Origin: Sipunculus nudus
Lineage: Eukaryota > Annelida > Sipuncula > Golfingiida > Sipunculidae
Length of the DNA stretch: 64,000 nucleotides
Direction of reading: 5' to 3'
NCBI GenBank assembly: GCA_026874595.1
Contig: CM049317.1
Location: forward strand, 27,308,401-27,372,400
Part shown: positions 26,971 to 55,156 of the stretch, piece by piece
Position numbering within the stretch: position 1 is the stretch's first letter
Layout: each line of letters begins with the position of its first letter
Made by a program: the position numbers and the translations under genes
The notes under the pieces: generated by a model
What the model was told of the DNA's origin: nothing
The model's database searches: none
Seen by the model: only the letters and a program-made list of their open reading frames with translations

Positions 26971-27438
26971 ATGAACGGGTTTGCTGTAATTCTAATATCC
27001 ATTCTTCTCTGCTGCACCCATGCTGGATGCCCAGGTACGACCTCATTACGCAGAGATCAGTGCGCTATTGTTTATGAACACGCAAACAAGCAAATGCGTT
27101 ACTCCTGCGGCGGAGACTCCCGATCTGTGCCGATTGGATACGTGGCTGACATCGGTCGAGAATGGAATGACAGAATATCGTCACTGGTTGTCCGACGACA
27201 ATGTGTACTGAATGTCTGGGAACACGCCGGAGGATGGGGGAAAATGCGCACGTTCCGACCTGGAGTGACGCCACACTTGGGTCTCATACGTCGTGGTTAC
27301 TGGTCGTGGTCGCGTAAGACGTGGAATGACGCCATATCTTCCTACGAGTGCAAGTGTAGGCCCACGGGTAGCATCCCGAACGTTGCGCGCCTGCGAATGC
27401 CCCCGTCACAAATGAAAAGCAGCGTCTGCTTACAGTAA
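26971..27438 (+). CDS. Secreted beta-gamma crystallin-fold protein, single exon
   Basis: 155 aa. Residues 1-18 form a signal peptide (hydrophobic, ending CTHAG). Two beta-gamma crystallin Greek-key motifs follow. In the first, CAIVYEHANKQMRY leads to EWNDRISSL. In the second, CVLNVWEHAGGWGKMRTF leads to TWNDAISSY. The pairs NDRISS and NDAISS fit the N/D-N/D-x-x-S/T-S calcium-binding signature of this superfamily. The second motif ends ECKC and a basic tail follows. Several cysteines suggest disulfides in an extracellular protein. AATAAA at 27486-27491 fits a single-exon transcript. However, the stop is embedded in TTACA|GTAAGG, a good splice donor at 27435, so a spliced longer form cannot be excluded. 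The biological role is unknown. Related secreted proteins occur in epithelia and eggs of other animals. Confidence 0.78.
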   Translation: MNGFAVILISILLCCTHAGCPGTTSLRRDQCAIVYEHANKQMRYSCGGDSRSVPIGYVADIGREWNDRISSLVVRRQCVLNVWEHAGGWGKMRTFRPGVTPHLGLIRRGYWSWSRKTWNDAISSYECKCRPTGSIPNVARLRMPPSQMKSSVCLQ

Positions 27439-33300: not shown

Positions 33301-34430
33301 ATGGATAAACTGAAGACTTTTGTAAAATTCTTAATTGAAATATTAGGGAGTCACTTCCCTTTGCAGCTTTCTGGGAAATTATTGAAAAATATATACTTTC
33401 GAGAGCATTATGTAAACATAATTTTTGGTGGACCAGAGTGCAGTGCATGTAAAAAGTGTTGCGTTGATGTCGCGCTGTACCGTATATGATAGATACTACA
33501 TCCGGTGTCAACATCAAAACGTGATGATTACAAAAGTAGGAAATATCGTGTCGGCACGCACCAAAGACTGCAGCGTCAAAGTTCAGAGGTAAGAGTTTAC
33601 ATGGTCAAAGTTCAAGTTGTGTCTGTCAATCCGTATACCACCATATTTAGATAAAACTCTTGGGGACGCTCGTGGGAGGCACAGGTTTGTCACATCCCCA
33701 ACCGTCTCTCATCTCGCCATCTGATAAAATAAAGAGATCATTTAATCTCTCTCTCTCTCTCATATAACCCATTTCCCACATCTAAGAATTTGAGTCAGTG
33801 ACATCTACACATTTTATCTGGATCTTACATGGTTTTAGGTACACCTGACTTTCATGTTTCACCGAGACGAGTTTCGGACGACACGTGAGGTAAACAGGGA
33901 AACAATTTATGCGTGAAAAGAGAAATGCAAGATCATGGTGTCATTACTCACATTTCCGTGCCTGCTCACATCTGGTGTTATGGGCCACGACTTTCATTTT
34001 ATTAATGGCGTAAATGAGGGCGTCATTTGCAACTTCATTGCATTTTACATCTTTTCTTATGTTGGTGGCGAAACACTGAACAGTTGCGTTAATCCTGGAC
34101 ACCACAAAACTGAAAAAAAAATGAACAAATAAGTAGAAACGTTTGAACCAGATTTTGGTTAAAAAAACCTTATTCAAAGACACATCGATGACGCATGAAT
34201 GTGTAGTCTATACAAGGAACATTATATTTGAGACAAGCTTCAGACCCTTTTATTGCATTATAATTTCACTAAAGTTTTTTAAACGTGAAAAAAGTTAAGA
34301 ATGCCAAGTGTATCAAATCCACGGGTGCTCACCTCTGGTAGGAATTGTTTGTAAAATAATGTCCGATGATTGAAAGAAAAAGTGACCGATCAACAATAAT
34401 TAATCGATGATTTTATATACTCTCAATACC
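33300..34430. other. No gene recognised
   Basis: A (CT)n tract lies at 33748-33764. A 62-codon open frame at 33301-33489 has a CSACKKCC cluster, but no start context, domain or splice support, so it is not called. Confidence 0.5.
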
Positions 34431-36262: not shown

Positions 36263-36840
36263 TGTGCATACATAATCGTTTGTGACAGATTGTGAAAAGA
36301 AAGATAAATCATCGATATAATCGATTAATTTACACACCACTAGTATAGTGTTCAGCTGGCTAGCCCGTGCTGTCGGCACGCGTGCAGGCGTGGTCATTGG
36401 TGCTAAATGGCTGCCTTGGTCAACCCTTCCCATATAGCTCTTTCTATATCCGCCGCGGCTCAGGACATAACTTACCAGTTGTGAGATTTTTGTTAGTTAT
36501 GAGATAATATATGTGAAAATTTGCGAGTTTTTTTTTAATCTCATGACTGATATATCACGTGTTTCTCTTTAATATTATTAGAAGGATCACATGGTAAAAC
36601 TATTACAGAAAAATTAAAGATATACAGACTAGTCACATATGTCATTTGTCTTCCTGTTTGGCTTCACGACACACGGCAGAATCTTCTGGAATATTTTGCA
36701 TTCTACAGAAAATAAAGTATATTTTATATTATCAAAGATAATTTTATGAAGATAGTATTGTTTTATGAAATTGTAATCGATGTACGTGTATTATAATTTA
36801 ATGAAAGTATTATTGTTTCATAAAATTTAAATACGTGTAC

Positions 36841-37750: not shown

Positions 37751-37881
37751 CTGAACAAATCATATCCACAGACAGTTTCCCGGTAAGACCGAACGTCTCG
37801 AAAAAATACTGATACGCGGAGCAGCCCGCCAGAGGGAGCTGTCCTCTTTGGAATTCTCGATAGCAGCGGTTGGCAGTCTCC
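37751..37881 (-). CDS. Exon encoding the second half of GDNF/GAS1-like domain 2
   Basis: The minus acceptor CCTGCAG precedes WETANRCYREF and GCSAYQYFFETFGL, ending LSVDMICS before donor GTAAGA. The C-x2-Y-x2-FF...C block resembles the KCHKALRQFF...FC block of GDNF receptor alpha domains. Confidence 0.75.
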
Positions 37882-40800
37882 CTGCAGGAAACAGTAAATC
37901 ATGTGATTGTGATAATTCTTGAAAGATCTTACACTACAAGTTGTAGTCGTATAAATGTCATCGTGTGTCACCTGATGTGAACTCGTCCTTGCTATGTATG
38001 CATTAAACCATTACTCTGTGACGTAACTAAAACTACCACTAATTGTTATCATTTAAATGGCTGTGGGCAGTTATGATTCAATAGCTCTGGTTAGTGATCT
38101 ACTCCTAGATTACAGTTCGCTCTCTGGCAGTACTTCAGGTCCAGTATGGGCGACATATTGTACTGTCGGAATCCTTCCGCCAGGAGGGCATGCGTTCATC
38201 ACTGCTCGTTAGAGGGTGTGTTTGTGTGTGTGTTTTTGTGTGTTTGTTTACACATAACTCACGCAATCATGAACGGAATATCATGATATTTTCAGGGCAT
38301 TTCGGGAATGGGCCAGTGAAGAATCGAGTAGATTATCGTGTGAAACCGGCACATGATCTGGATTCAGGAGGGTCATCAAGGAATATTTAAAAATGTACAG
38401 TCACTTATGCATGAATGAACATGGGAATATGGTCCGAATAATTGAATGCAAAAACGGTGTTGGGAGCACCCCGACAATAGGGACCCCCTAATGGCTCGCA
38501 TTCCTTAGAATGAGATTTCTAGTCTATCAGACAGCAACTGTGTAACTGTCGGAATGCCTGTGGTAGGAAGCGAGTCGAAGAATAAAATACAGCATAATTG
38601 CTATTTTGTGTCAAGTTTAGGAGTTCCAATACTTATTCACATAGACCTAATAGGACTAACTTTGACAAATGTCCAGGAATCCTGTTGGACAATGTGAGTG
38701 CAAGGTACCATTTTCTCAGCATACTCACATATATCCATATATTTTAGTTTTTAGTTTTGTCAGAAATAATCGACATGCAATTGATTTCAGGGACACCGCA
38801 ATCCACATTTTATGCCGTAAATGGTAATCCACCGTTTAATAATTGATATTAAAAGTTTAGGAGCCATTATAATCCATGACAGATCTTTTCCACGAGCATG
38901 CGCACTGCGCGTAACGTTTGTCTGTTATGATCTGGTCCAATCAGCCGGCATCGAGTTTTGTCGAGTGGTCTCTGATAAAAACTAAAGACCCCCACAAGAA
39001 CCTGTCCATTAAATACAAGGAATTTTCTTAAATAACATGATTTTGACTAAACGTAGGCTTTCTTTAACAATGAACCACACCGAACACATAGTGTTAGCGT
39101 TCGATGACAGGTGTCGCTAGTGTTAGTAGGAAACGTCTATCTTGATTTTCTCCCTCTCCACTTATCTTGAATTTGTGTGATTTTTTATAAGATTTTCCTG
39201 GTCGAGAGAATTCTGCTGTACCTATATGCTATACCTGTATGATACGTAATAAGTTTACGTTATAAGAATATGCCAAATAAATGATATAGACTGGTACTTA
39301 CCACAGTGACTTGTTGCAAATGGGACTCTGGTAACGATAAGCTTCGATCAGCGCCTCACCGCATTGGACCGTCCCCTTGGCACAACCAGGTTGGTTAAGA
39401 GCTAGAGAGATTAAAAAAATACATAAACAGAAAAAAAATAGAAAACAAATGGCCAACTGGTTACAACGCCAAGCTGCAAAGCATGAAAAATATGGTCCGA
39501 TATTTATAAACATCACCGTCGTACACGGAGCAACAGTTGCACAAACTAGAGCAGGAAAATTGAACCTGGAGAAGAAATGAACATGGCAAAAAGATTACGA
39601 GATATTTTATACATCTAGTCACAAATATTGTTACGGAACCTGATAAAAACAGATCACGTAATCGTGACGAGCATAAATTTTGTAACGGAGATAAAAAAAA
39701 TCAGATTCACTAGGCAGCGTGAAATGTCTACGGGAATGAATAAAGAAGTCAGTGTTTTTTGTTAACAAATAACTATAATTTATTCTTAGAACAATCCTAA
39801 CATTACAATACACTAAATAAATACAATTACACAGAATAACAATAAAAATGTACAGTACCAGAGTGTACGGATCCTAGGCTTTGATCTCTGGATACCACCA
39901 CTGTCATAGCTCAACAAAAGTCCTTTCACACAAATATTCCAGGTAAATAGTAATAATCCATAGGCAAACTGAAGACAGTCCGTATTAAATCTGTATTAAG
40001 TCCTTTGAATATCTGACTCCACTGCAATTATCGGTAAGGTCCCAAAACTGACGAGACAGTAACACTCTAAGTGCTCCCTGGTATTTTCCTTTCTGTCGGC
40101 TCTTAACATAGCCGCTAATTTATAGCTTCTCACCCGAAAATTCTAGAAATGGAAAATTCGCAAAGAACAATACACCCGCACATGAACAGACCCGAAACAC
40201 CTAGAACAAAGAACGCCTTGTCTCTACACTTCAGACCCCATACGCGAGCCAGCGCTCAACAAGCGAGGTTCCCATAGCAACAAACTATGCCTGCGCTACA
40301 TTTAAAGTTTAATACATAATCTAAGATAAATATTAAACATCCGGACAGATATCCTAAAACAGTTTTACGGTAGTATATTGTATACCGACAAAGCAGGCAA
40401 AACGATCCGGACAGATATCTTGAAAAAATTTTACCATTTTTATATTGTATATGGACAAAGACAAAAATGTCAACGATCCGGACAGATATATCCAAAAACA
40501 GTTATAATAAAGTATACTGTTTACAGACAAAGCAGACAAAAATGTTAACCTATCGGACATATATCCTTAAACTATTATACTTTTGTATATTGTTTATAGA
40601 CAAAGACAAAATGTAAACTATCCGGACAGATATCACCGAACAGTTTTACTTTAGTATATTGTATACGGACAATGCAGAAAAAAAATTAATAATTTGGACA
40701 GATATCCTAAAACAGTTATACTTTAGTATATTGTATACGAACAAAGACAAACATGTTAACCATACGGACAGATATCTTAAACAGTTTATACTATAGTATA

Positions 40801-43800
40801 TTGTATACAAAATATACAAAGCAGACAAAATGATCCGGACAGATATCGATCAATTGTAGGCAGAGAGCAGCGGGGTTATAAAGCGGGGTACCAGTCTATC
40901 CACGTACCTGGCTGCTCGGTTATGCAGTGCCAGGCCACATGCAAAGTTGGGTCCGTGTTCAGCCGTGAAAATAGCAGTCTGGTCACGTCATCCTTGGTGC
41001 AGGCGCAGTCCTTCTTGGCAATCAATTCCTCATATAGGTTATGTAAGCAGGTGGTCTCGTTCTGGTACTGCTGCTGTGTGTATTTCCTTGAGAAGATATG
41101 TATAAGTTAATAAAATCAGGCATGGGAGGAAACCAGTCATGCAGGACATGCACGTGTCCAGGGGTGGACTCGACTCCGGACCCATGTACACTTTTTCGGG
41201 ACTCAAGGTCTTGGACTTGAAAAGGCTTGAAAGGTTGTAATCGGACATGGACTTTAGGGCTCGAGAAATCAGACCGAACCTATCTTGAGTCCAGCAGATT
41301 AAAAAGAACTCGGTCACGCAAGGTCTGATATTGCAAAACAAACAATACAAAAGACTTGCATGTGCAAAGTGTTTACAGAAGTGTTTGCTTAAAAGGATTG
41401 GGGAATATATAACTCTCCCATCCGCCCCCACCCGTGTATTGACGCTCCTGTTTGAGCTGAAAAAAAAAAAAATTCGATGTGTATTTTGAACATCTAATGT
41501 CAGTCGTCGCCAACAGTGATCGCTAGTGTGGTGGAAACGACCATTGCAAATTTGCCAACCTGCGTACAGGGTGTAAGGTCTATTAAGCCAATGATATGAA
41601 CCTGCCAGTAAGTACGGTCTAAAACATGTTTGATCTGATATTTGACCAAATCAACGTCTCACTTGGGTGATCAGTAAATGTAAACAACATGTGACTCTCG
41701 ACCCCTTGGGACTCGTGTCTTATTTCAGCATGCAATAATGGTTAATCTCCCAAGTCATGCATGTAATCCTTTTGCATAATGTGAAAAAGACCACAACAAG
41801 TGTCCCAGCACTATCATCGTGCATTAGTTTCAGCAATGCTGGCAACAGTTTATCACGTAAACCATCAGTGGTAGCACGTGTACAAGTTTCTGTCTACAAT
41901 ACCACGTCACAGATATTACAACACAAATAGGTCCGTAGGTTTATCAATATAAAAAAAAATATATTTCCCGGACAAATTCCATTTGTTGGTTATATTTGGA
42001 ATGGATGTTTTCGAAGCATACTTTATATTTTCTAATTGCCTTAATGACTGTTATTTTCAATTGTGGGTGATACAGCCTGCGTCCGACTTGAAATAGTGCC
42101 TTGCCCACACTGATTTGCTGAGATCTATCCCCTCCATAGACGAGATCTCGCGTGATGACAATGATTTCCTTGCACAGTTACTTCTTGCATGTAGAGAGTG
42201 ATTTATGCAGCTGGAAATTAATATATAACTTCAGAGAACGTATAAGTCGCGAAACTTTCAAACTTAAAGCATGCAATTCACCTACCTTCTATGGAATTTA
42301 TATAATTTCTGGCTTTAAATACTCTGCGTACATGTAAATGAACTCTACAGGTAATTCCTTTTAAGAAAGGTTCTTATAACGCCTCTGTGACGGATGTATT
42401 AGCTTTGTTTCTATAAACTGTTAGTAAACACAGACATGTTGACAAAAGGAAAAAAAATCATGTGACCTGGGGTGGTTGGTTGCAAATGTGCTGAAGTTGA
42501 AAGTTGACTTCGCCAGCTATCCTTGTCGAATGTTTGGATTATTTTGGCGGGATTTACACGTGGATGTAAACAAATGAACAGCCAGGTGCGGCATGATCGT
42601 CTTTTCGGGCTTATTTTTATGAAAGGTTCAAGGTTTATCTTTACTTAATTGACGTCAGATATTCAAATAGGCCCCTTCAACATTTTCTGGCCTCAAAGCA
42701 CAATTCTTATCAAAGTTTTGTAAAAATCACCGATAAATTCTGATTTTTTTTATAATACGGTGAAATGACCCTGCACCCCAACGTAAATCTTCAGCCAATA
42801 TTAACACAACCGAAGATGGCATCCCATATATGCGTATGTAGTACGTATGCAGTACGTATATGCGTATGCGTATACAGGACCTTTCGGTCGCTAATGTAGT
42901 GACTGAAAACGCAAACGCATGGAAACGGACGGGGGAATCTCGCTCTATGACGTCCGTGGTTTAGAGTATTCCTCTGGCAGATAGGTTCTCTGCTCCTGCA
43001 GTGCTTTTCTATATAATCCGAATTTTGCAGCATACATAGTACCGTATAGACATAACTATAATTAGTATTAATAGAACCACAGGCGTCCGCTTTCTAGCGT
43101 TATACGGATACGCGTCGCATACGCATTCGCCCTGCACTCATATATATGGAGTGCTTGCTTTAAATACAAAATAATTATCCTATATACCTGCACTCGGTGA
43201 AGTTGTTCGGATTGGGCTTCCGGTTTGCCACTCGACATCTCGAGGCATCAATACTGCATATCTCTACAGTAAAAAAATAGTCCGCTGACAAAATGTTTTT
43301 GTTAATCTATTTTATATAACATATCACTGAAATAATTTATCATTTTAGGAAAAAAAGACAAATTCTCAAACAGAGATATAAAATTAAGTTTTCATTTCTT
43401 TGTTTCCCATCACACTTTTTCTATCACTGCAATAAACATTTAGTACTTTGTAGTAATAAGTCTCTGATACATTAAATTTGATGTTTTTTTTAAAATTTAT
43501 ATATCTATAGTGTATACATGGTAGATATAAAAATTGAATGTTATAAAAGACGAAAATAATAATTATTTACAAAACGTGTCGTATCAACAGTACGCACCAA
43601 AAAATTTACATTTCAAACGTTTCCTACAAAGTCCGTACATGTACTTCTCTTTTAACCAGTTAAATAATTTAATCTCAAGAAGAAATTGATTAATAAAAAA
43701 TGTTTCCATTTCATTCATTGAAAATCTTCTTTCGGTAACAAATCCCTCAAACATTTGTTTGATATTGCCTATACAAAAATACATCCTCGTGACAAATAAA

Positions 43801-46800
43801 CACTTGGTTAAGTGATAAATTCCCTGTTTTATAGCTGTATAACAGATAGTCTGAAAAGTAGTCCAATGTCTGAAAATTGAGAAGTCCTGTCCTATGTCCC
43901 AGCGCCTCAATTTCTCAGCAAATTGGTTTCTATAAGTTGACTAGGCCAATGGCCCAGTACTTTTGCAACCCGGTGTTTGCAACTGAGTAGTCCCGTATCC
44001 GTTCAATCCAAGTGTCTCCAAGTTGAGTAGTCCCATGTTTAAGCGACTTAATAGCAGTTGTCTTCAGTTTGAGTTGTCCCAGGTCTCAGCACCTCAGCCG
44101 TCCGGATTTTAAGTTGAGCAGTCCAGTGTCTGATCACCTCAGCAACCCAGTGTCTCCGAGTAGGATGGTCTGATGTCTCAGCACCCCACCAACCCGGTGT
44201 CTCCAAGTTGAGTTGTCCCATGTCTTAGCACCCCACCAACCCGGTGTCTCCAGGTTGAGTCGTCCCATGTCTCAGCTACTCAGCCGTCCGGATTTTGAGT
44301 TGAGCAGTCCAATGTCTAATCACCTCAGCAACCCAGTGTCTCCAAGTAGGATGGTCTAATGTCTCAGCACTTCGATGAGCAGTCGGATTTCTGCCTCGCA
44401 TCTACACAGTTCGGTCATTTGACTGAAGACTTAACACGGTATGGTAGTAAACCTCGGGGCAGACAGACAGACAGACAGACAGACAGACAGGCAGACGGAG
44501 AGAGTACATACTTTGTTCACAGTGGCGCCCTCTGTGTCCTCGAGTACAGGAACATCGGGCGTGCTTCGGACCAAAACTGTAACACGTTCCACCATTGTAG
44601 CACTTGAATCCCTGGCATCCCTGGCCTTCAAACAGATATAACAATCATTATTTGTATCTCGTCACCTTTATCTCTTGTATGCCTGGCTTGAATACAAATA
44701 TCACTCACATCACTTGAATCTCTTGTATGCCTGGCCTGAATACAGATAACCGTCACGGCGACCAGATCTATTGTGTTGTTAATAACAATGCAAAGATTCA
44801 CCATGTGGGTGTAATATCCAAAATATTGAATACCGTATTTCCTTGATCAGACGCCGGGCCTTAGACAGTCGAGTTCCTTATTTAATACATCGTCTGAATG
44901 AAATAAGTGCAGGGGCGTTAATACAAGTAAGGATTTGGGTATATATCCCCCACTTAAAGCAAAAGGGAATCCCCATCTAATCCGAGAATATAAATGGGCA
45001 TTTGTTGATAAAACTACCTGAAGACTATTGCATGTCTTTTTGTTTTAAATGAGAAAAATATTATGTGACGTAATGACAACACGGGACTGAAATGAAAAAT
45101 TCTGATTCATTATCTTGTTATTTATTAAGGAAATAATGTTAACAGCACGGTTACAGGAACAGTCGCCTCATATTCGTAAGGAAATAATGTTTCCAAATGC
45201 ACTTGGTGCACATTTAAAGCAACCAGCACAAGAAAAACGAGATATGTGGCCTCGAAGGCCCCCCGGACAGATTACTAATGCCCGCTGCAAAATCCCTCGC
45301 TTTAATCCCCATAAAAGAACTTATTATATTCCGTGATTGAGTCGACTGAGCTTTTGTACTCATATCCCTATTACATCTTAGGGTACTTTATAATTTGCCG
45401 GCTGTTTTCAAATTCACTCCAGACAGGTGACAGGTATTCCTGTTGGATTCTCTGTTGTGCAGGGCCGGATAGTGTATTTGTTTAATCATCAGGTCATCTG
45501 ACGCGAGGGCACTCGAAATTTCGAGTGTCCAAATATTCCCTTACTTTAGCTTGTAAATTGTAATTCTAAACTTTTGATATGCCAGTCTAGAAGATTAGGG
45601 GTTAAACAGCATGTATTACAGTTTATATTACTGTTAAGTGTATGTGATATGGTAAAAAAAACTGCACAGTCGTGGAAAATTATTGTAGGCGGCTCTACCA
45701 GTTAAGCTCTAGGGAAAGCTGAACAAGATCTTCTGTCCTGTAAGCTTTCAGGCCCATCCATCCACGGACTCCGGCGATATCCAAGGTTATGATCTGCATC
45801 CTAAATGGAACTATTAAAAGCATTGGTCACCCGCAGAGTAGAGGCCAGGAACCCGTAATGAGGCTACGTTATCTGATGTATCTTAGCACAGTGACTAAAA
45901 TCCCTATTTGTGGGTGCGATTTTATCGAGAGATGACATCTTTTCATACGGAGATGACGTGAATTACCAAGAAAGTGCTCAAAACAGGCATTTGTTCTCAT
46001 TTCCTCTAAATAAGGATTCAAGCAATTGTGATCTGAGTATATGCGTAATTTGACATATATCCTATCGGTAGAATTTTTTAGTTAAACACATTGTTGACGA
46101 CTACCAGAAATAGGAGTTGAAACTGCACAAAGAGAGACAAACGTTTGCAGGTGGCGGCACCTTGCATGTGTTTGGAATAATACAGTTCAAGACGATGCAC
46201 ACGGAAAATAAATCACACCAATACATAAAACCACTCCACTCCTGTGATTTTCCTCTAAAACAGAGACCACGACAAAACATGGTGGCGCCACAAGCCTCGT
46301 GCTCGAGATACAGCTACATATATAAATGCAAAATTCTAGGCTAAAACGCACCCAACCACTTCTACTATTTATACAACTTTTATAATCAGAGTATTACTAT
46401 CACACGTGCAGAACTACCATTATTTCACAAACAGATTTTGATTAACACAGAAGGAGCTTTCGATTTTTTCTTACGGAAAGCAGGACTCATCTGCCGTCAG
46501 TGGGACAGTTCTTGCTTGGATCATCATATAACGCTTATGCATTTAAAAAATCACTCTCGACTTGAGTGAGAATTAAACATGCCTATCAAAGGTGTATTAT
46601 TTTATTAACCCCGCTATGAATCTGACATATTTGTCGTGACTTTGAAACTTGTATGCTAAAAACGGAACCGGGTATTAGACAGGATTATCGGCCTTTACCA
46701 TAAACTTTGCCATTTTGAACGGCTATTTCGTCATTTTCAGACTGGGTTAGTATGTGCTTGGGGAAAACAACAACAAGCCAAGTGGGACAAAGCAGGCATT

Positions 46801-48547
46801 TCAGACCTTCCATTCAGTGGCCGGTTTACAACTTTCATACAATTAGGTTAGGTAGATATGATGTCTCCATGGACCTTTCACGTGTTATGAGTGCAAAACA
46901 CTAGGTAATATTCGGGCTCCGAGTGCGTCAATCGGGGGGGGGGGGGGGGGGGGGCTCTTTAAACATTCTTTTATAGAATGCAGAGTACCTTTACACTTTC
47001 ACTACCTTAGGCGGTCTTTTAATTAATAAAAAATAATTATACTTAATTAAGATTAAGGGTTTAAAAAAATAGATACGGTCATATTAATATTTACTTTCAA
47101 TCTAGAGAATGGCTTAACAGTTTTTAAAAGGCCTGGAATGTGATATTCATTATATCTAATTTTAATGAAATGGTACTCAATATTTTCTTCACTTCAAGTA
47201 TTTGTTTATCATTATTTGATCGAGTGTCTCACCTATCTCACATCGTTTTCCTTGAAATCCTCCTCGGCAATCACAACGTTGGTGCCAGGAATTGTTCCTG
47301 GTTCGACTGGAGCGACATCTACCGCCGTTCAAACAAAAATTCTTTGTTGTCAAGCAGGGATCAACTGCAATCGAATGAGAGTTATTCATATCACTGTGAA
47401 TGCAGACAGAATTACTGTTTTTTTTTCTTTTTAATCAGCAGGGACTCTAATTTATTAGTAAGACGTTAAGTAGTTCCTAAATGGTCAATAGTGGATTGAG
47501 ATGTTGCTTGAAACCCAATGTATTGTTTAACAGCAGCGCCGTACTCGATGTTCCTTGGATGGTAATCAGTGTTCTCAAAACAGCGATAATATCCAGGTTA
47601 CATGTATGGGAAGATCAAAATAGTTCAACATGATGTTAATTATATCAGGAAGCATAATTTTTACAGAACGATGTGACCTTGTGTTTGGCCTCTAACTAAA
47701 TAAGACGAAAGATCAAATGCTTTGCCCTTGCCCCTGTCACCTATCGAATGGACTTTTCCACTAATTAAATCAGGTTCCCTTGCTTTGATTGCCTATCCAT
47801 CTGAATTACTAGTATGTTATAGTCACCTTAAAATAGAACCTAAAGTAACTTTTCACTGTCTTTACTTGGCCTCTCCCGCTGGTGTTCCAATATTGCACAA
47901 GGCATGAAGGCTGACATAAATACACGAGAGGTCTTGAGAAGAGATCGTCATGAATGTTCATGAATATTCAGATATTAGGAAAAAACAGGTCATACTTAGC
48001 AGTTGTCTTCACAAACTTAGGAATACAGAGTCTTATTAACATATGGAGGTAAAGGTATAAAGCTAACCCCAAAATCAAATGAGCCTATTTTTTTATAAAC
48101 GCTATATCTGCATATGATTTACGGTGGTCGTCTATGTCCACGCCTCGAATATGCGTCAAGTTCGCGTAACCCATCCAACTTGGTGTAACCCATGTATTTT
48201 TTTCCTATCTTAAAAATGTGAGGTTTAACCCTTTACATATATAACGCAATGAAAGAAGTTCTGGCCCAAGAGGATTCACGATACCACGGACTGTTACCGA
48301 TAAATGATAACTGAAGGCCATATTCTGCATATCGGACAGTCGGACATGGTTGCAATAGTCCATTTTAGGATGAAAGTTATCAAAATTAAAGAGGGAAATG
48401 GTTCGCAGTGACTCTGCACTCAGCACTCTAACTTATATTTTATTTTAACTGTCATCTGGTTTGCGCGAACGAAAATATGATCGCGCCAATTTAAATATGC
48501 GTAACCCTTGTGTTACGTTAAAGATCATTCACATAATTTGTCCAGGG

Positions 48548-48603
<56 letters not shown>

Positions 48604-51600
48604 GTACCACAAAGTGTACATTTATTGTGTACAACGAGAAAGGAGAACATGACAGTGAAAAACGAAATACATTATGTATTACATATATAGGACCTTTCAG
48701 TTTTAAGATATTTGTGTGTGTGTGTATGTATGTCTCACCTGCAGTACAATTTACGCCCGCGTACGTCCAAGGACAGTAACACTTGTACCCGCGTCCCCAA
48801 CCGACGGTACGACACCTGCCTCCGTTCATACATGGCTTCTCCCGTACACATATGTTGTTGTACTCTACGAAGAAAAAATGTACATCCGGTTATGAAGGAA
48901 CCTATTTATGTATTTATACATCATACATGTACACCTTATTTGTACATATTTCGGCTGGACAATTAATACAGAAGTTAAGAAATATAGAACAATATAACTT
49001 ATTGTTAGGACCTAAACATGTCTGGTAATAAATTATCACAAATTGTTATATCAAAACTAACTAACAATGAGGTAAACTGTTATACATGAAACAACAAAGA
49101 AAACAAAGGAAAGAAAGAATTATATCTGATATATATACATAGGACTATAGCTATAATATAATTATATTAAGGTCCCATAACTTGCTAGGAGTCTGTTAAC
49201 ACATTGTTTCACTTTTTCCTTAATATTGAATAAGCTGTTGCTATTGGATTACTGGACATGTAGGCCTACATATTCTGAAAGCTAAAATATTCTTTTTTTT
49301 ATATAAGATTTAAAACAATTATACTACTCTTATATATTTCACTTTAAATTGATAATTCTCAGTCATTTATGGTTCAAAACATTCCATCTGCACTATATAG
49401 AGCTGTGAACATATGATCTAAAATTTTCATTTTTATGTTTTTGCCTATCTTTAATATGGAGCTTTCATGGGGGAAAATTAACAAAGAATATATATATATT
49501 TTTTTTACATTTAAAACTTGAATACATTAATAATAATTTTGATAGTTCAGATCCTATTAAGTAACAGTTTTAGTGGTATTACCTTTATTTTAATATGATA
49601 TCCAGAGATATCCGATAGGTGTTACATGAATGCTGAAATAAATTTTATTTGGTCTAAGGTCAGATTGAGTCTACCTGTATCAGAATCCAATTTTTCTATA
49701 TAAAAATGATTAGCACGTTCTCATCTATTAGAATAGGTACATTTCAAGGGTTCCAGACCAGTAGTTTGTACAGTATTAAGGAAAGCCGAAACAGTGCTTG
49801 GCCATGTTCATTGGAGAGTTCTTACACCTTGAAAGCCAACTGAACCTACCCTTTTCACAAAACCTTCCATGGAAACCGTTAGTACAACGGCACCGAGTTT
49901 TCCAAGACCCGAACAAGCGAAATGACCAGCACCTCCCTTTATTCTGACAAGGGTTTGCCTTCTTACACGGATCTTCTGCAATAAAGGCGATTGACATATC
50001 TCACATACTGTGTTCTTTACAAAGCGTTTAATTAAACTCTAAGCACTCGTGGCCACCTCTTGTTTGCTTTTCAAGCTAAATTTCACTTCAATGTAAAAAT
50101 GGGACAGTAGGACAGAACATTAGAAGCCCGAATTCCCAACAAGGCAAATTAATACCTATACTTAACACCTTATTGATGAAATAGAATTATTTAAAAATAT
50201 GAGAAATCAGTCTACATTTTACAACCTATCAGACCCATTTATGGCGGTCAAGATCATTGTTCATGGGCACAAATAGCTTAAACTGACAGCTGCTGTCTGG
50301 ATGGTGTCATGTAAACAATCTAAGAAATATAACCAGCCAAGACAAAGATGGTTATTTATGTAGGGACACACTTGATCAGTCAGTTATTTGGAAGTGTCCA
50401 AAAATGTGAGAAATATAACTTGGAGATTTATTTTAAAAATTTTCATTGACGTATTAAATTATCAGTCCGACATGCGGTTTTAATTGAAATACATGAAAAA
50501 TATATTTTTTTTTTCTAAAAAAAGTCTCTAAATAATAGATTATTATATACTATTAAAATATATTTATATGTTATTAACCCGAAGGAAAATAAAAGGTTAT
50601 GCCGAAATATTCAAATGAAACACTTCAACAGTTTACACGCGCCGGTACCTTCATACATATAGTGTTCCTGTATGCTGTAAATTTCATTCCTGAGCTGTGC
50701 GTCACAGAGAACTTTGACGTCACACGAAATGTGGAGCTTGTCGATTTCAATCTGGATCGTTGCCTCACTGAGTATATTAAGAGCCGAGCTGATATAAGCT
50801 CACTGTGTTAAAATTTTTAAACCATATCGTCCACGGGCATTGATATAACCTTGAACAACGTTTCGTATTTCTTGTGCCGGGTCCCGGTATCCATATGATA
50901 ACATGCGTTACTGGTTGATAAATTTAAATATATATCATCGCTTACTTTGGGTGCATGTCTTGGCGCTGTAGCCTTTAGCACAGCGACAGAAGAACCTGTC
51001 CTGTCTCCCCCAGGGTACACATCGCCCACCGTTCTTACAAGGGTTATCCCGCAAGCAGATGCTGGCTGTGAATAAGGAATGTGAAATGTTCATAAATATT
51101 TAAAATCAATAAAACATAATAACTTATAATGATTTCAGCTGTCTTATTTTTTGATAAGGTACATTCTACCACCATTGTCCACCTTTTTTTCTCGATAATT
51201 TTGAGGTTCGACAAATTTGCCAAACAAAACTTGCACCAATGACAGCAAGAGGACAATGTGTATATTTGGCTTAAGATATAAATACTATCCACTTCACTGC
51301 CTGGTTGACTTATCTGTTGCATATCCGTGATTCATGGCGTCCCTAACAAATAACCATTGTTTGTCATTCGGGGATATGGTTATGCATAATGTGTGATGTA
51401 ACAGTGAAGCACGTGCACAAGGAGAATACAAGCCTCACTGTAAACAGGGGTTGGCAGCTCTAATCTGGACCCATGGTTATGGGAGATTTTTTGTGGGTAA
51501 CGTCTGTTATAACGTCATCACTGTTCTCTGCCATGTCCATTTGATAAGATGTTGTTACAGAATAGTTTCTCTTAAAATTGTTCTAATGATTTACAGGAAA

Positions 51601-54600
51601 TGGCATAAGGTAGTTCATTTCACTTTTTTGTCACTTCCTGAATTTGGGGCAAAGATTTTTGGCTTTCTTTGATTTGCATAGCTGGTCCTAATTTAGGTTT
51701 TATTTATATTACAAGATTATGGAATTTAGGCCCTATTTCATGATGACAAGAAGAACAAAGAACAGTCAAGTATTTAATGTTAATATAAAAAACCGTTCCA
51801 TTTAATCGCATGGCTATTAGTGCAAGGACACACTTGATCAGTCATATTATTAGAACGTGTCCTAAAGTTGTGAATCATAAACTGGAGATTTATTTTAAAG
51901 GTCTTCATTGACGTGTTAGATTATCACCCAGACAGGCAGTTTTTTTTAAATAACTGAAAAATATATAATTTTGAAAAATATGTCTCTAAATAACAGGTTA
52001 TTATAAAGAATTAAATATATTTAATATGTTATTAACCCGGAAGAATATTAAGGGTAATTCCGGCCAAGATGGTTCATAATAATTTATAATAAAACGGCCA
52101 CGCAATCTATCGATAAACCAAACCGTGTACAGTCACTTAAATGTCACGCAATATTCAATAGAAACACTTCTACAGTTCACACGCGCCTTACATTCATACA
52201 TATAGGCCTAGTGTTCTAGTATGTTCATTCCTGGCCTGTGCGTCACCGAGCACTTTGACGTCATACGAATTGTGAATTAAGCTTGTTGATTTCATTCTGG
52301 GGCGTTGCCTCACTGAGTACTAGTATATTGAGAGCCAAGCTGATATAAACACACTGTGTTTAATGTATAATTTATATCGCCCACGGGCATTGGTATGAAC
52401 CTTGAATAACGTTTCGCATTTCGTGTGCTGGGGCCTCTGTATCCATTTGATAACATGCGTGACTGGTTGATATATTTAAATATATATCATCACTTACTTT
52501 GGGTGCATGTCTTGCCGCTGTAGCCTTTAGCACAGCGACAGAAAAAACTGTCTTGTCTCCCCCAGGGTACACATTGCCCGCCGTTCTTACATGGGTTATC
52601 CCGCAAGCAGATGCTGGCTGTGAATAAGGAATGTGAAATGTTTATAAATTTTTAATATCAATAAAACATTATAACTTTTAATGGTTTCAGCTGTCTTATT
52701 TTTTAATATAATCCCTTCCAACATCCCTCGTGTTGGGTTTCTTTGGATTATTTTGAGTTAGACAAACATGCCAAACAAAACTTGCACCCATGACAGTAAG
52801 GAGACAATGCGTAAAATTTGTCTTACGATATAAATATTATCAACTTCACTGCCTGGTTGACTTATCTGTTATATATCCGTGATTCATGCCGTCCCTAACA
52901 AATGACCATTGTTTGTCCTTCAGGTATATGGTTATGGCGCAATGTGTAACGTACGTAACAGTGAAGCACGTGCACGAAGAAAATACAAGCCTCACTGTAA
53001 AAAGGGTTTGGCAGTTCTAATCTTTTGTCCCATAGTTATAGGAGCTTTTTTGTGCGTAACGTCTATGGCGATGTCCGCACTAACAAATAATCCGGATCGT
53101 GAATCGGTTTACTCAGTCTGCACTAGGCTACTAATCCACATCAGTTCGTTTTGCTGTAGCCCGCTTAAATAAGGGGGTCTACAGTAGTCCGGTTTACCTC
53201 AGGCCAGTTTACAGAAAACCGGTTTCTAGTGCGTAAAGACAAACCCACTTCTAGTCCGAATGAGTCCTGTTTTATCGAACGGCCTGGACCGGTACCCCTG
53301 ATGTTGCCCAAACTTACGTTGCCCGAGGGAGCTTTCAGTTGAAGGCCTGGATCGGATTACGAACCAAATGCGGACAGCAAACTCAAGTTGAGTTGTACAA
53401 ACCGGTTTAGGCTTTTCTAAAGCGAACTTCCGTGCATACGCAAAGTGGACTACTTCGAGACAAAGTAAATCTGTTTAGCATCATCCGGTTAAGATGCGAA
53501 CCAAGTGCGGATACGGCCTTTTATAACGTCATCACTGTTCTCTGTCATGTCCATTTTATAAGATGAGGTTACAGAATAGTTTCTCTTAAAATCGTTCTCA
53601 TTTTACTGAACATCACACAAAGTAGTCACACAAAGTGTTATTTAAAAATAGTTAATTACGCTTTTTTCCTTATGCTGGACTTGGTGCAAAAAAATTGAAT
53701 TTCTATTAATTTTTCTGATAAATATTCTCGAAAAAAGGTGAGCAAATTTTGTCTTGAGCTGAGATAACAGGGTGAGGCTAGGGTGGTTGCGTCTAGATTG
53801 GAGCGTAGTAAAACCTTGTCTATATTTAACATGGTTGATCCACAACGCGGGGATCCACAGCAATATAGCAATACAGAAGGGTATATAGATTTTCCATGCA
53901 TCCGGCTCACAAAAAAAAGAACTTGATAAATAAACACTAGAATACACACAAACAACATCCGGTGGCGTGGTTCATGGTGACAATGTTAATAAATTGGTGA
54001 ACTGTTTGATTTTTGTATTAATACTCTCCGCTTACAGTCCATCATACCTGGAGCTGAACATCAATATGTCACAGTTTGATAGCGTCCGGTACTGGGGTAC
54101 CATGTAGATCAATATAGGTCGGTGGGACCTAATTTGAAGTGTCCCTGTCAGAAAACTTTATGTAAACTTCATTTATTTTACATGGATTGTACAACTACTT
54201 ATGATAACTAATGCTAGACACTCTTCGAGGCTCGGATGGTATCGTTTGGTAGTCTGAAGCGGCGGAGGAAACTGGAGGACCCGGAAAAAACCACCGACTT
54301 TAGACAAAAACAACCAACTCTCATAGTCACGCCATGGGTCGGACTCGGGTCGAGAGCGGAGAGCGTTTAACTTTTTACCACTCGACTGTCTAGGGTCTGA
54401 TGGTTACAATTCTCAGCGTCAGACGTATGAGAGCCCGAGGCATTCAAACTGTATCTTTGCCAGGCGACGCAGACCCTCCATGAGGGTCTTCTGAGAATTT
54501 ATTTGAAAAAAAAATCCCAGTAAGAGCTGCCTTTTCTTTGAGCCGGAGTCTCCTGTCTAGCAGCTATAAGTTGTGTTTTACTTAAGTTTGCACTATAGTT

Positions 54601-55156
54601 GTAATCTGTGATTCTGTGAATGTTCTGCTGTTGCATTTTCTGATCTGATATAATGGTGAACTTTGAGAATGACTTAAAATTGTATTATGTAAATATGCTT
54701 AGTCGATGCATTTGAAACTTTGCAATTTTAAAAACTGACCATGTGTTTTGACGTACTATGGCTAGCAAAATCAATCCGGTTAATTTGACCATAATTTTTT
54801 TTATTTAAAAGTGACCCTCCCCCCCCCCCCCCCACAACAAACAGTTGATGCTGTGTTTATTTTACAGTTAATTTATCATTCATAATTTTTGTTATCTTTT
54901 TTTTTAATTTTAAATCAGAAACCCACGTTACATGTCTGTCATTTTGTCAATGTTCAACGCTATAGGAGTTTGTAAGATAAACAAAGACCTTTGCCCCTTG
55001 ACAGTAGACTTTTGTTTAAATGACTGACAAGGGCCCGGATGCTCGAACCAGTATAGAAAAAGAAGGACAAGTCATACCCTCTGCAGAGGTCACTCCAGTC
55101 AACATGAAAACGGTAACTAGGGCAATCGCAGTCCCCGTGACCAGCACAGGGAACAT
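37751..55156 (-). CDS. Secreted protein with six EGF-like modules and two GDNF-receptor/GAS1-like domains
   Basis: Minus-strand exons in order: 55156-55078 (signal peptide), 52617-52498, 51065-50946, 49975-49850, 48864-48739, 47364-47233, 44625-44512 (one EGF-like module each), 43263-43188, 41086-40908, 39401-39302, 37881-37751. All introns are GT-AG and all junctions are phase-compatible, giving 434 residues plus one base. Residues 1-24 are a signal peptide. Six EGF modules span about 27-272, each with six cysteines in the C-x4/5-C-x5-C-xn-C-x-C-x8-C pattern. Residues about 273-435 show CxxxxxxC, a long gap, C, then C-x(n)-C-x-C or C-xxA/Y-x-x-FF spacing as in GDNF receptor alpha and GAS1 domains. 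The family binds GDNF-type ligands or Hedgehog at the cell surface. Whether this protein binds any ligand is unknown. The 3' end is unresolved. A 5' UTR exon probably lies upstream of 55160. Confidence 0.8.
38210..38460 (+). repeat. Dispersed repeat, copy 2 ('NSRNHERNIM' repeat)
   Basis: Shares ACTCACGCAATCATGAACGG and GGTCCGAATAATTGAATGC with 23400-23700, with motif order kept. It lies in an intergenic or intronic part of the minus-strand gene (intron before 37881). Confidence 0.7.
39302..39401 (-). CDS. Exon encoding the first half of GDNF/GAS1-like domain 2
   Basis: Acceptor TCTCTCTAG precedes LNQPGCAKGTVQCGEAL and AYRYQSPICNKSLW, and donor GTAAGT follows. C-x6-C followed by a tyrosine-rich helix and C matches the start of GDNF receptor repeats (C-x6-C...SYISIC). 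Confidence 0.75.
39620..40260. other. Intronic stretch with possible LTR-like sequence
   Basis: The segment between TGTTACGGAACCTG (39630) and about 40250 looks like repeat-derived DNA (CTCCCTGGTATTTTCC, TTCTAGAAATGG). I cannot find paired ends, so the class is undetermined. Confidence 0.25.
40338..40850. repeat. About 70-base minisatellite in an intron
   Basis: TCCGGACAGATATC recurs near 40340, 40405, 40476, 40551, 40620, 40690, 40762 and 40832, with TAGTATATTGTATAC between copies. There are about eight units of about 70 bases, ending some 60 bases from the donor at 40907. Confidence 0.85.
40908..41086 (-). CDS. Exon encoding the second half of GDNF/GAS1-like domain 1
   Basis: Encodes RKYTQQQYQNETTCLHNLYE, then ELIAKKDCACTKDDVTRLL and HVAWHCITEQP. 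The C-x(13)-C-x-C spacing with an LxxL helix resembles ECRSAMEAL...NCRCKRG of GDNF receptor alpha. The NET sequon is present. Donor G|GTACGT. Confidence 0.75.
42820..43130. repeat. 'cgtatgcgtatac' repeat cluster in an intron
   Basis: GTATGTAGTACGTATGCAGT and TATATGCGTATGCG motifs, followed by CAGGACCTTTCGGTC. Related in composition to the palindromic element at 29820-30245. Confidence 0.4.
43188..43263 (-). CDS. Exon encoding the start of GDNF/GAS1-like domain 1
   Basis: Encodes KICSIDASRCRVANRKPN, then NNFTEC before donor GTATAT. C-x6-C at the start is the same as in domain 2 and in GDNF receptor alpha repeats. Phases: 1 in, 2 out. Confidence 0.72.
43950..44390. repeat. About 47-base minisatellite in an intron
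   Basis: CCGGTGTCTCCAAGTTGAGT..GTCCCATGTC..AGCACC repeats with spacing of about 46-48 bases, roughly nine imperfect units. It ends about 120 bases from the EGF module 6 exon. Confidence 0.85.
44459..44492. repeat. (CAGA)n microsatellite
   Basis: Tetranucleotide run just inside the intron, about 20 bases from the splice donor of the EGF module 6 exon. Confidence 0.95.
44512..44625 (-). CDS. EGF-like module 6 exon
   Basis: Encodes GQGCQGFKCYNGGTCYSFG and ARCSCTRGHRGRHCEQ, with six cysteines in EGF order. Phase 1-1, the usual class for shuffled EGF exons. Donor AAA|GTATGT. Confidence 0.88.
45400..47150. other. Intron between EGF modules 5 and 6
   Basis: Contains a poly-G run at 46936-46955. 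The start of the same intron (44850-44960) has ATACCGTATTTCCTTGATCA, resembling a dispersed element end. No additional exon was recognised between 44626 and 47232. Confidence 0.5.
47233..47364 (-). CDS. EGF-like module 5 exon
   Basis: Encodes VDPCLTTKNFCLNGGRC, then CDCRGGFQGKRCEI, with six cysteines. Phase 1-1. Acceptor GATTGCAG, donor ATAG|GTGAGA. A longer loop between cysteines 3 and 4 than in the other modules. Confidence 0.9.
48548..48602. repeat. (AT)n microsatellite
   Basis: Uninterrupted TA run, intronic, about 135 bases from the EGF module 4 donor. Confidence 0.95.
48739..48864 (-). CDS. EGF-like module 4 exon
   Basis: Encodes EYNNICVREKPCMNGGRC, then YKCYCPWTYAGVNCTA, with six cysteines. 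Phase 1-1. Acceptor CTTCGTAG, donor GCAG|GTGAGA. Confidence 0.9.
48900..49840. other. Intron between EGF modules 3 and 4
   Basis: AT-rich, nothing recognised. Confidence 0.6.
49850..49975 (-). CDS. EGF-like module 3 exon
   Basis: Encodes KDPCKKANPCQNKGRCW, then TRCRCTNGFHGRFCEK, with six cysteines. Phase 1-1. Acceptor TTATTGCAG, donor AAGG|GTAGGT. Confidence 0.9.
50190..50430. repeat. Dispersed repeat, second copy (see 33080-33300)
   Basis: Same motif order as 33080-33300: CACAAATAGC, TGTCATGTAAACA, ATATAACCAGCC, ACACTTGATCAGTCAG. A partial third copy is at 51780-51880. Confidence 0.6.
50600..51640. repeat. Tandem duplication unit A (carries EGF module 2)
   Basis: Matches 52160-53610 in order on both sides of the exon: TGTGCGTCAC..GAGCACTTTGACGTCA, GTTGCCTCACTGAGTA, the exon, CTGTGAATAAGGAATGTGAA, GACTTATCTGTT, CAGTGAAGCACGTGCAC and TATAACGTCATCACTGTTCT. 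This is a clear segmental duplication of an exon with its introns. Confidence 0.9.
50946..51065 (-). CDS. EGF-like module 2 exon
   Basis: Encodes SICLRDNPCKNGGRCVPWG, then FFCRCAKGYSAKTCTQ, with six cysteines. Phase 1-1. Differs from module 1 at 3 of 39 whole codons' residues (R/Q, R/S, A/G). Confidence 0.9.
52498..52617 (-). CDS. EGF-like module 1 exon
   Basis: Encodes ASICLRDNPCKNGGQCVPWG, then FFCRCAKGYSGKTCTQ, with six cysteines. Phase 1-1. Joins the signal-peptide exon in phase (G + CC = Ala). Confidence 0.9.
53062..53518. mobile_element. Insert with imperfect inverted ends in duplication unit B
   Basis: Unit A runs GTAACGTCTGTTATAACGTC without interruption at the equivalent site. In unit B about 450 bases intervene. 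The insert begins TGGCGATGTCCGCACT and ends AGTGCGGATACGGCCT, imperfect inverted repeats of about 16 bases. There is no transposase frame. A target duplication is not clear. Confidence 0.6.
53620..55070. other. Intron 1 of the EGF/GDNF-like gene
   Basis: A C-run lies at 54822-54835. Open frames at 53642-53958 show no domain or splice logic. No extra exon is needed for phase between the signal exon and EGF module 1. Confidence 0.55.

Follow-up and report, generated by a model that had tools for sequence, protein, structure and literature searches.

The members of the GFR family are known as surface co-receptors and GAS1 is likewise surface-anchored; mussel foot protein 2 and the EGF-containing shell matrix proteins of molluscs are secreted EGF arrays. 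GFR domains contain ten disulphide-forming cysteines each (PMC4349606; PMC3527400) and GFR proteins are anchored at the cell surface (PMC3527400). The latter paper describes DmGfrl of Drosophila as glycosylphosphatidylinositol-anchored with four GFR domains, and a Caenorhabditis elegans gene as predicting four such domains, and its passages on them mention no EGF modules (PMC3527400). Among the literature matches listed, none announced a GDNF/GAS1 domain in fusion with EGF modules. We analyzed a 64,000-nucleotide stretch of the Sipunculus nudus genome (assembly GCA_026874595.1, contig CM049317.1, positions 27,308,401 to 27,372,400; hereafter the window), in which an initial annotation had assembled a minus-strand gene joining a signal peptide and six EGF modules to two GDNF-receptor/GAS1-like repeats. 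The fusion itself was confirmed, while the assignment of the repeats found no support at the level of sequence. The best reading, held with a probability of about 0.55, is that the gene encodes a secreted extracellular binding or scaffold protein, one of a family in which basic EGF arrays are combined with a 20-cysteine C-terminal domain of their own.

The eleven exons first proposed, from 55156 to 37751, were all recovered; their borders follow the GT-AG rule and their phases agree (0-1, then 1-1 for the six EGF exons, followed by 1-2, 2-1, 1-2 and 2-1). Joined together, they leave 434 codons open, for which base composition gives a chance of about 1e-13, a naive figure because the exons were selected for their openness. 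The gene was however not found to end with exon 11 at 37751, since three additional exons downstream (12 to 14) complete a protein of 535 residues, encoded by 14 exons and closed by a TAA stop codon (Table 1). Each of these three exons has a counterpart in a copy of the gene located elsewhere in the genome (C11), and two more distant relatives (C13 A and C13 B) carry exons matching 12 and 13 in identical phases. Exon 12 differs from its C11 counterpart by an in-frame three-base indel that leaves the splice borders unchanged. Its donor, TA/gtctgt, is weak and identical in C11, and was accepted because it yields the phase required by exon 13; in C13 A and C13 B the corresponding exon has a gtaagt donor, agrees in phase and spaces its cysteines similarly. 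The C11 match of exon 14 was weak in a genome search with the C-terminal part (E value 1.57). We rejected a gene model in which exon 12 is the last exon, or ends at CC/gtgtgt, as the window and C11 bases directly past that site are identical and TA/gtctgt suits the phase of exon 13. A splice chain lacking exon 8 (76 bases, 43263-43188) was also discarded, as it is out of frame and opens once exon 8 is added.

That the EGF exons and the cysteine-rich C-terminus form one protein is clearly indicated by a relative on C5 (L011:532-2292), in which a single exon of 586 stop-free codons encodes a signal peptide, an EGF array (PF00008 matches five stretches and EGF_2 seven, and visual inspection gives seven modules) and, after it, the same C-terminal domain, this last part being 24% identical to that of the window protein. 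The splice chain lacking exon 8 had left room for two adjacent genes, one encoding EGF modules and the other a cysteine-rich protein, joined by mistake. Such an error is very unlikely because the C5 relative holds both halves in one open frame; it is also at odds with the EGF-then-C-terminal order seen at six of the nine family loci, and with phases that agree across exon 8.

The C-terminal part of the window protein comprises 263 residues with 20 cysteines, which are most likely engaged in disulphide bonds. In an alignment of five members, where the distant ones are 24-26% identical to the window copy, 18 of these 20 cysteines are invariant. One more is out of register in the C5 row only, and aligned in other alignments, and the last (20th) is present in each of the three members for which the tail sequence was available. 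The initial annotation had described two cysteine-rich repeats opened by C-x6-C; these openings are indeed present, but three exon-pair units (exons 8 and 9, 10 and 11, 12 and 13) fit better than two repeats. This description relies on cysteine spacing, namely 6,14,13,13,1,24 in unit 1, 6,14,10,13,21 in unit 2 and 8,11,13,10,23 in unit 3, and on exon phases, as exons 8 to 13 run 1-2, 2-1 three times over in the window, C13 A and C13 B; matching borders and an open chain were found over the same exons in C11. The likeness in spacing between units within a copy was equaled by 28 of 14400 orders in the window, and by 12 to 52 of 14400 over the five copies, while comparisons of the three units did not demonstrate sequence similarity among them beyond the cysteines. 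A scan of the five members against NCBIfam gave a best E value of 0.028, with unrelated names, and the domain is, as judged by sequence comparison, unrecognized by the copies of Pfam, NCBIfam and PDB that we searched. Two structure models were obtained, both of low confidence: the C-terminal part of C5 alone was modeled as all helices (predicted local distance difference test, pLDDT, 39.3; predicted template modeling score, pTM, 0.23), and 108 residues with four single-exon rows as helices plus strands in the exon 11 region (pLDDT 52.3, pTM 0.37).

Membership of this domain in the GDNF/GAS1 family (PF02351) was not supported by its sequence. At an E value limit of 10, under a family cut-off of 22 bits and with HMMER filters that discard most matches above about 0.1, PF02351 was not listed for the window protein and its units, for the C-termini of C11, C5, C13 A and C13 B, or for the units of C13 C, C13 E and C8 F, C13 D being outside the scan; domains 2 and 3 (D2-D3) of GFRA1, used as a positive control, reached 113.5 bits (7.7e-33). 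Neither the window sequence nor any of four profiles retrieved a GFR chain from PDB. Using hidden Markov models (HMMs) of eight GFR domains, or of six without GFRAL, the window copy scored like shuffled sequences (between 57 and 146 of 200 full shuffles did equally well), and the best relative, unit 1 of C5, attained 3.5 bits, with 3 of 200 shuffles as good; held-out GFRAL domains, as a control, scored 29.1 and 14.5 bits with the GFR-domain HMM. In hhalign comparisons with GFR domains, the whole domains gave probabilities of 0.4% and 0.1%, and units 1 and 2 gave 0.76% and 2.3% against the eight GFR domains, compared with 86% for GFRAL against other GFR domains. As known GFR domains D2 and D3 themselves reach 5% against each other (Smith-Waterman z 2.1), this sequence test is however weak in power. 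A search of the whole genome for PF02351 gave no match, but the control genomes likewise gave no signal, so that this absence carries no weight. A single genomic match to human GFRA1 (E value 1.76) was attributed to chance, its frames being broken by stops, and none of 23 pattern matches in viral contigs was confirmed.

The low score of the known D2 and D3 pair, compared with the 2.3% of unit 2, leaves some room for a highly divergent GDNF/GAS1 domain, which would make the protein a secreted GFR-like binder with an EGF stalk; on balance we consider this unlikely. The C-x6-C openings, together with the CxC of unit 1, the tandem units, the general cysteine richness and a possibly helical fold, recall GFR alpha, GAS1 and GFRAL. 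When the third GFR cysteine is dropped and the comparison stopped at cysteine 7, a pairing chosen post hoc, the spacing of GFRA1 D3 is matched as well by 2 of 120 orders for units 1 and 2 and by 10 of 120 for unit 3, the corresponding numbers for GFRA1 D2 being 4, 4 and 12. The ten-cysteine pattern is nevertheless absent, since the units carry six or seven cysteines, the final tail cysteine excluded; the longest GFR-like register that we could read covers unit 2 and the start of unit 3, with nine cysteines and without cysteine 3. Two of the ten cysteines are also missing from the C. elegans homolog (PMC4349606). Smith-Waterman comparisons of the C5 relative with GFRA1 gave z 4.1-4.6 in 3 of 10 cases, which are non-independent, and the window copy, which scores no better than shuffles with the GFR HMMs, did not exceed z 2.2. 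The model of C5 is all-helical though unreliable, and the second, low-confidence model has strands in the exon 11 region. The window protein further departs from the GFR proteins by its EGF array, by the absence of a membrane anchor and by the lack of any PF02351 match or GFR chain. Somewhat less likely again is a branch of the GFR superfamily that is secreted and carries no anchor. In this reading, a tandem-duplicated helical cysteine module, related in fold to GDNF/GAS1 but with six or seven cysteines and repeated exon pairs, would have become fused to EGF arrays in this lineage, and the combination would have multiplied to at least nine loci, including a single-exon copy.

The family search covered the 153 contigs (1.43 Gb) of this genome; the queries were the window, C5, C13 B and C13 A members, and the counts are lower bounds. 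At least nine related loci were found, namely the window (C12), C11, C5, five loci on C13 (at about 48.38, 48.744, 48.767, 48.835 and 48.870 Mb) and, at 10.57 Mb, a single locus on C8, the C13 members forming a cluster of at least five on both strands between 48.37 and 48.87 Mb. The C13 D locus is represented by one exon (E value 5.7e-5) plus two weak exons in order, and that on C8, which scored poorly genome-wide (best E value 0.32), was accepted because three consecutive exons match in order. EGF modules lie upstream of the C-terminal domain in the window, C11, C5, C13 A, C13 B (where the pattern gave one module and tblastn another) and C13 E; none were found at C13 C, C13 D and C8 within the 1.1-1.5 kb of upstream sequence covered. 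The C11 copy displays ten EGF-pattern matches versus six in the window, where exons 2 and 3 are a duplicated EGF exon, both corresponding to one C11 exon. Across the family, the number of EGF modules thus varies, whereas the C-terminal domain retains its cysteine frame.

Most of the window gene, including introns and upstream DNA (33175-55836), aligns to C11:22988226-23021848 at mostly 71-87%, an alignment which we read as a segmental duplication between chromosomes. Taken as wholes, the two copies are under purifying, not diversifying, selection. The ratio of nonsynonymous to synonymous substitution rates (dN/dS, Nei-Gojobori), calculated from a two-way alignment of the exons common to both, with five further EGF-pattern stretches of C11 outside the comparison, was 0.36 over 494 codons, a better argument against chance than the openness of the exons. 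In a separate three-way alignment, the single C11 exon matching window exons 2 and 3 was spread across both. The ratio reached 0.29 in the EGF part, 0.41 in exons 8 to 11, 0.31 in exons 8 to 13, 0.13 in exon 13 and 0.77 in the signal peptide. This overall constraint is a point against an immune recognition or antimicrobial family, which the packing of five loci into about 0.5 Mb of C13 (four others lying elsewhere), the expansion, the cysteine richness, the probable secretion and the basic charge of the EGF part might otherwise suggest, and which we consider a rather doubtful explanation.

The signal peptide and the six EGF modules of the initial annotation were retained, as all six modules (6/6) display the EGF cysteine pattern and the 535-residue protein matches PF00008 with 69.8 bits (cut-off 21.5, E value 2.2e-19) over five stretches. 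As in other EGF-like domain proteins, each module occupies one phase 1-1 exon, but the array is here fused to an unrecognized domain and its module count varies among copies; calcium-binding EGF is absent from the three Pfam families listed for the window protein. The EGF part is markedly basic, with 46 lysines and arginines versus 13 aspartates and glutamates (net charge about +33), and six N-glycosylation sequons are present in the protein. No hydrophobic segment was found among its last 60 residues (best 19-residue window 0.45, Kyte-Doolittle), nor was a hydrophobic C-terminal stretch found in the C11 protein. An EGF protein with a signal peptide, without an anchor and under purifying selection could also be a diffusible signal or decoy, whose modules would act on EGF-type or Notch-type receptors with the C-terminus as a carrier. 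The tandem arrangement of six modules in the window and ten in C11 speaks against such a role, which we judge to be improbable. The O-glucose motif, typical of Notch-type EGF arrays, occurs in none of the six window modules and the O-fucose motif in one of six, which likewise speaks against it.

We therefore favor the secreted binding or scaffold role, because of the signal peptide, the absence of a C-terminal anchor and the basic EGF part, in contrast with the surface-anchored GFR proteins. The 535-residue protein would be released without an anchor, its basic EGF rod would retain it in acidic extracellular matrix, mucus or shell/byssus material, and its disulphide-tied C-terminal domain would act as a head binding a specific partner. 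Secretion, location in the matrix and partner binding are, in our opinion, what this anatomy most likely indicates, and family members probably act as binders in the matrix or around cells. Secreted EGF arrays are a feature shared with mussel foot protein 2 and the EGF-containing shell matrix proteins, neither of which is known to carry a comparable 20-cysteine C-terminal domain. Several points weigh against the role that we favor: the basic charge also suits an antimicrobial or ligand function, and neither exon 12 (dN/dS 0.88 on five changes) nor exon 14 (1.2 on eleven changes) displays a constraint of its own between the window and C11, so that the exon 14 tail is not conserved.

Table 1. 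Exons of the EGF-array gene, with positions numbered along the window.
Exon	Position	Strand	Phase	Content
1	55078..55156	-	0-1	Start codon and signal peptide (called by eye); hydrophobic peak within first 22 residues
2	52498..52617	-	1-1	EGF module 1
3	50946..51065	-	1-1	EGF module 2; duplicate of exon 2
4	49850..49975	-	1-1	EGF module 3
5	48739..48864	-	1-1	EGF module 4
6	47233..47364	-	1-1	EGF module 5
7	44512..44625	-	1-1	EGF module 6
8	43188..43263	-	1-2	Unit 1, first half, C-x6-C-x14-C; C13 A and C13 B have a matching exon
9	40908..41086	-	2-1	Unit 1, second half, C-x13-C-x-C-x24-C
10	39302..39401	-	1-2	Unit 2, first half, C-x6-C-x14-C
11	37751..37881	-	2-1	Unit 2, second half, C-x13-C-x21-C
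12 (new)	36630..36702	-	1-2	Unit 3, first half, C-x8-C-x11-C
13 (new)	33952..34109	-	2-1	Unit 3, second half, C-x10-C-x23-C
14 (new)	33647..33720	-		Final cysteine and stop codon TAA

The introns of this gene hold two minisatellites, at 40328-40847 (units of about 72/142 bases) and 44012-44370 (units of about 47/92/186 bases). The former also aligns to the C11 copy in many registers, and may for this reason be older than the duplication that separates the two copies. A transfer RNA-like stretch at 36260-36185 on the minus strand resembles, by eye, the head of a short interspersed nuclear element, and ARAGORN reported no transfer RNA gene at that place. None of the other open reading frames of the window bears on the EGF gene. 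One of them, on the plus strand at 26971-27438, is intronless, encodes 155 residues that, judging by eye, probably include a signal peptide, and matches Syncollin (PF15138) at 7.7e-19; a literature search on syncollin in molluscs found no paper. Another, at 1345-1863 on the plus strand, corresponds to the start of a carboxylesterase (PF00135, 8.4e-8); a cholinesterase-like gene probably has its first coding segment here.

These results define a conserved, presumably extracellular domain, characterized by 20 cysteines in three exon-pair units, which is unrecognized in the libraries searched and is found at no fewer than nine loci in one genome. Should the GFR fold prove true, these proteins would add a secreted type, linked to EGF modules, to receptors that are otherwise known as surface co-receptors. 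In either case, the C-terminal domain offers a concrete target for work on structure and expression.

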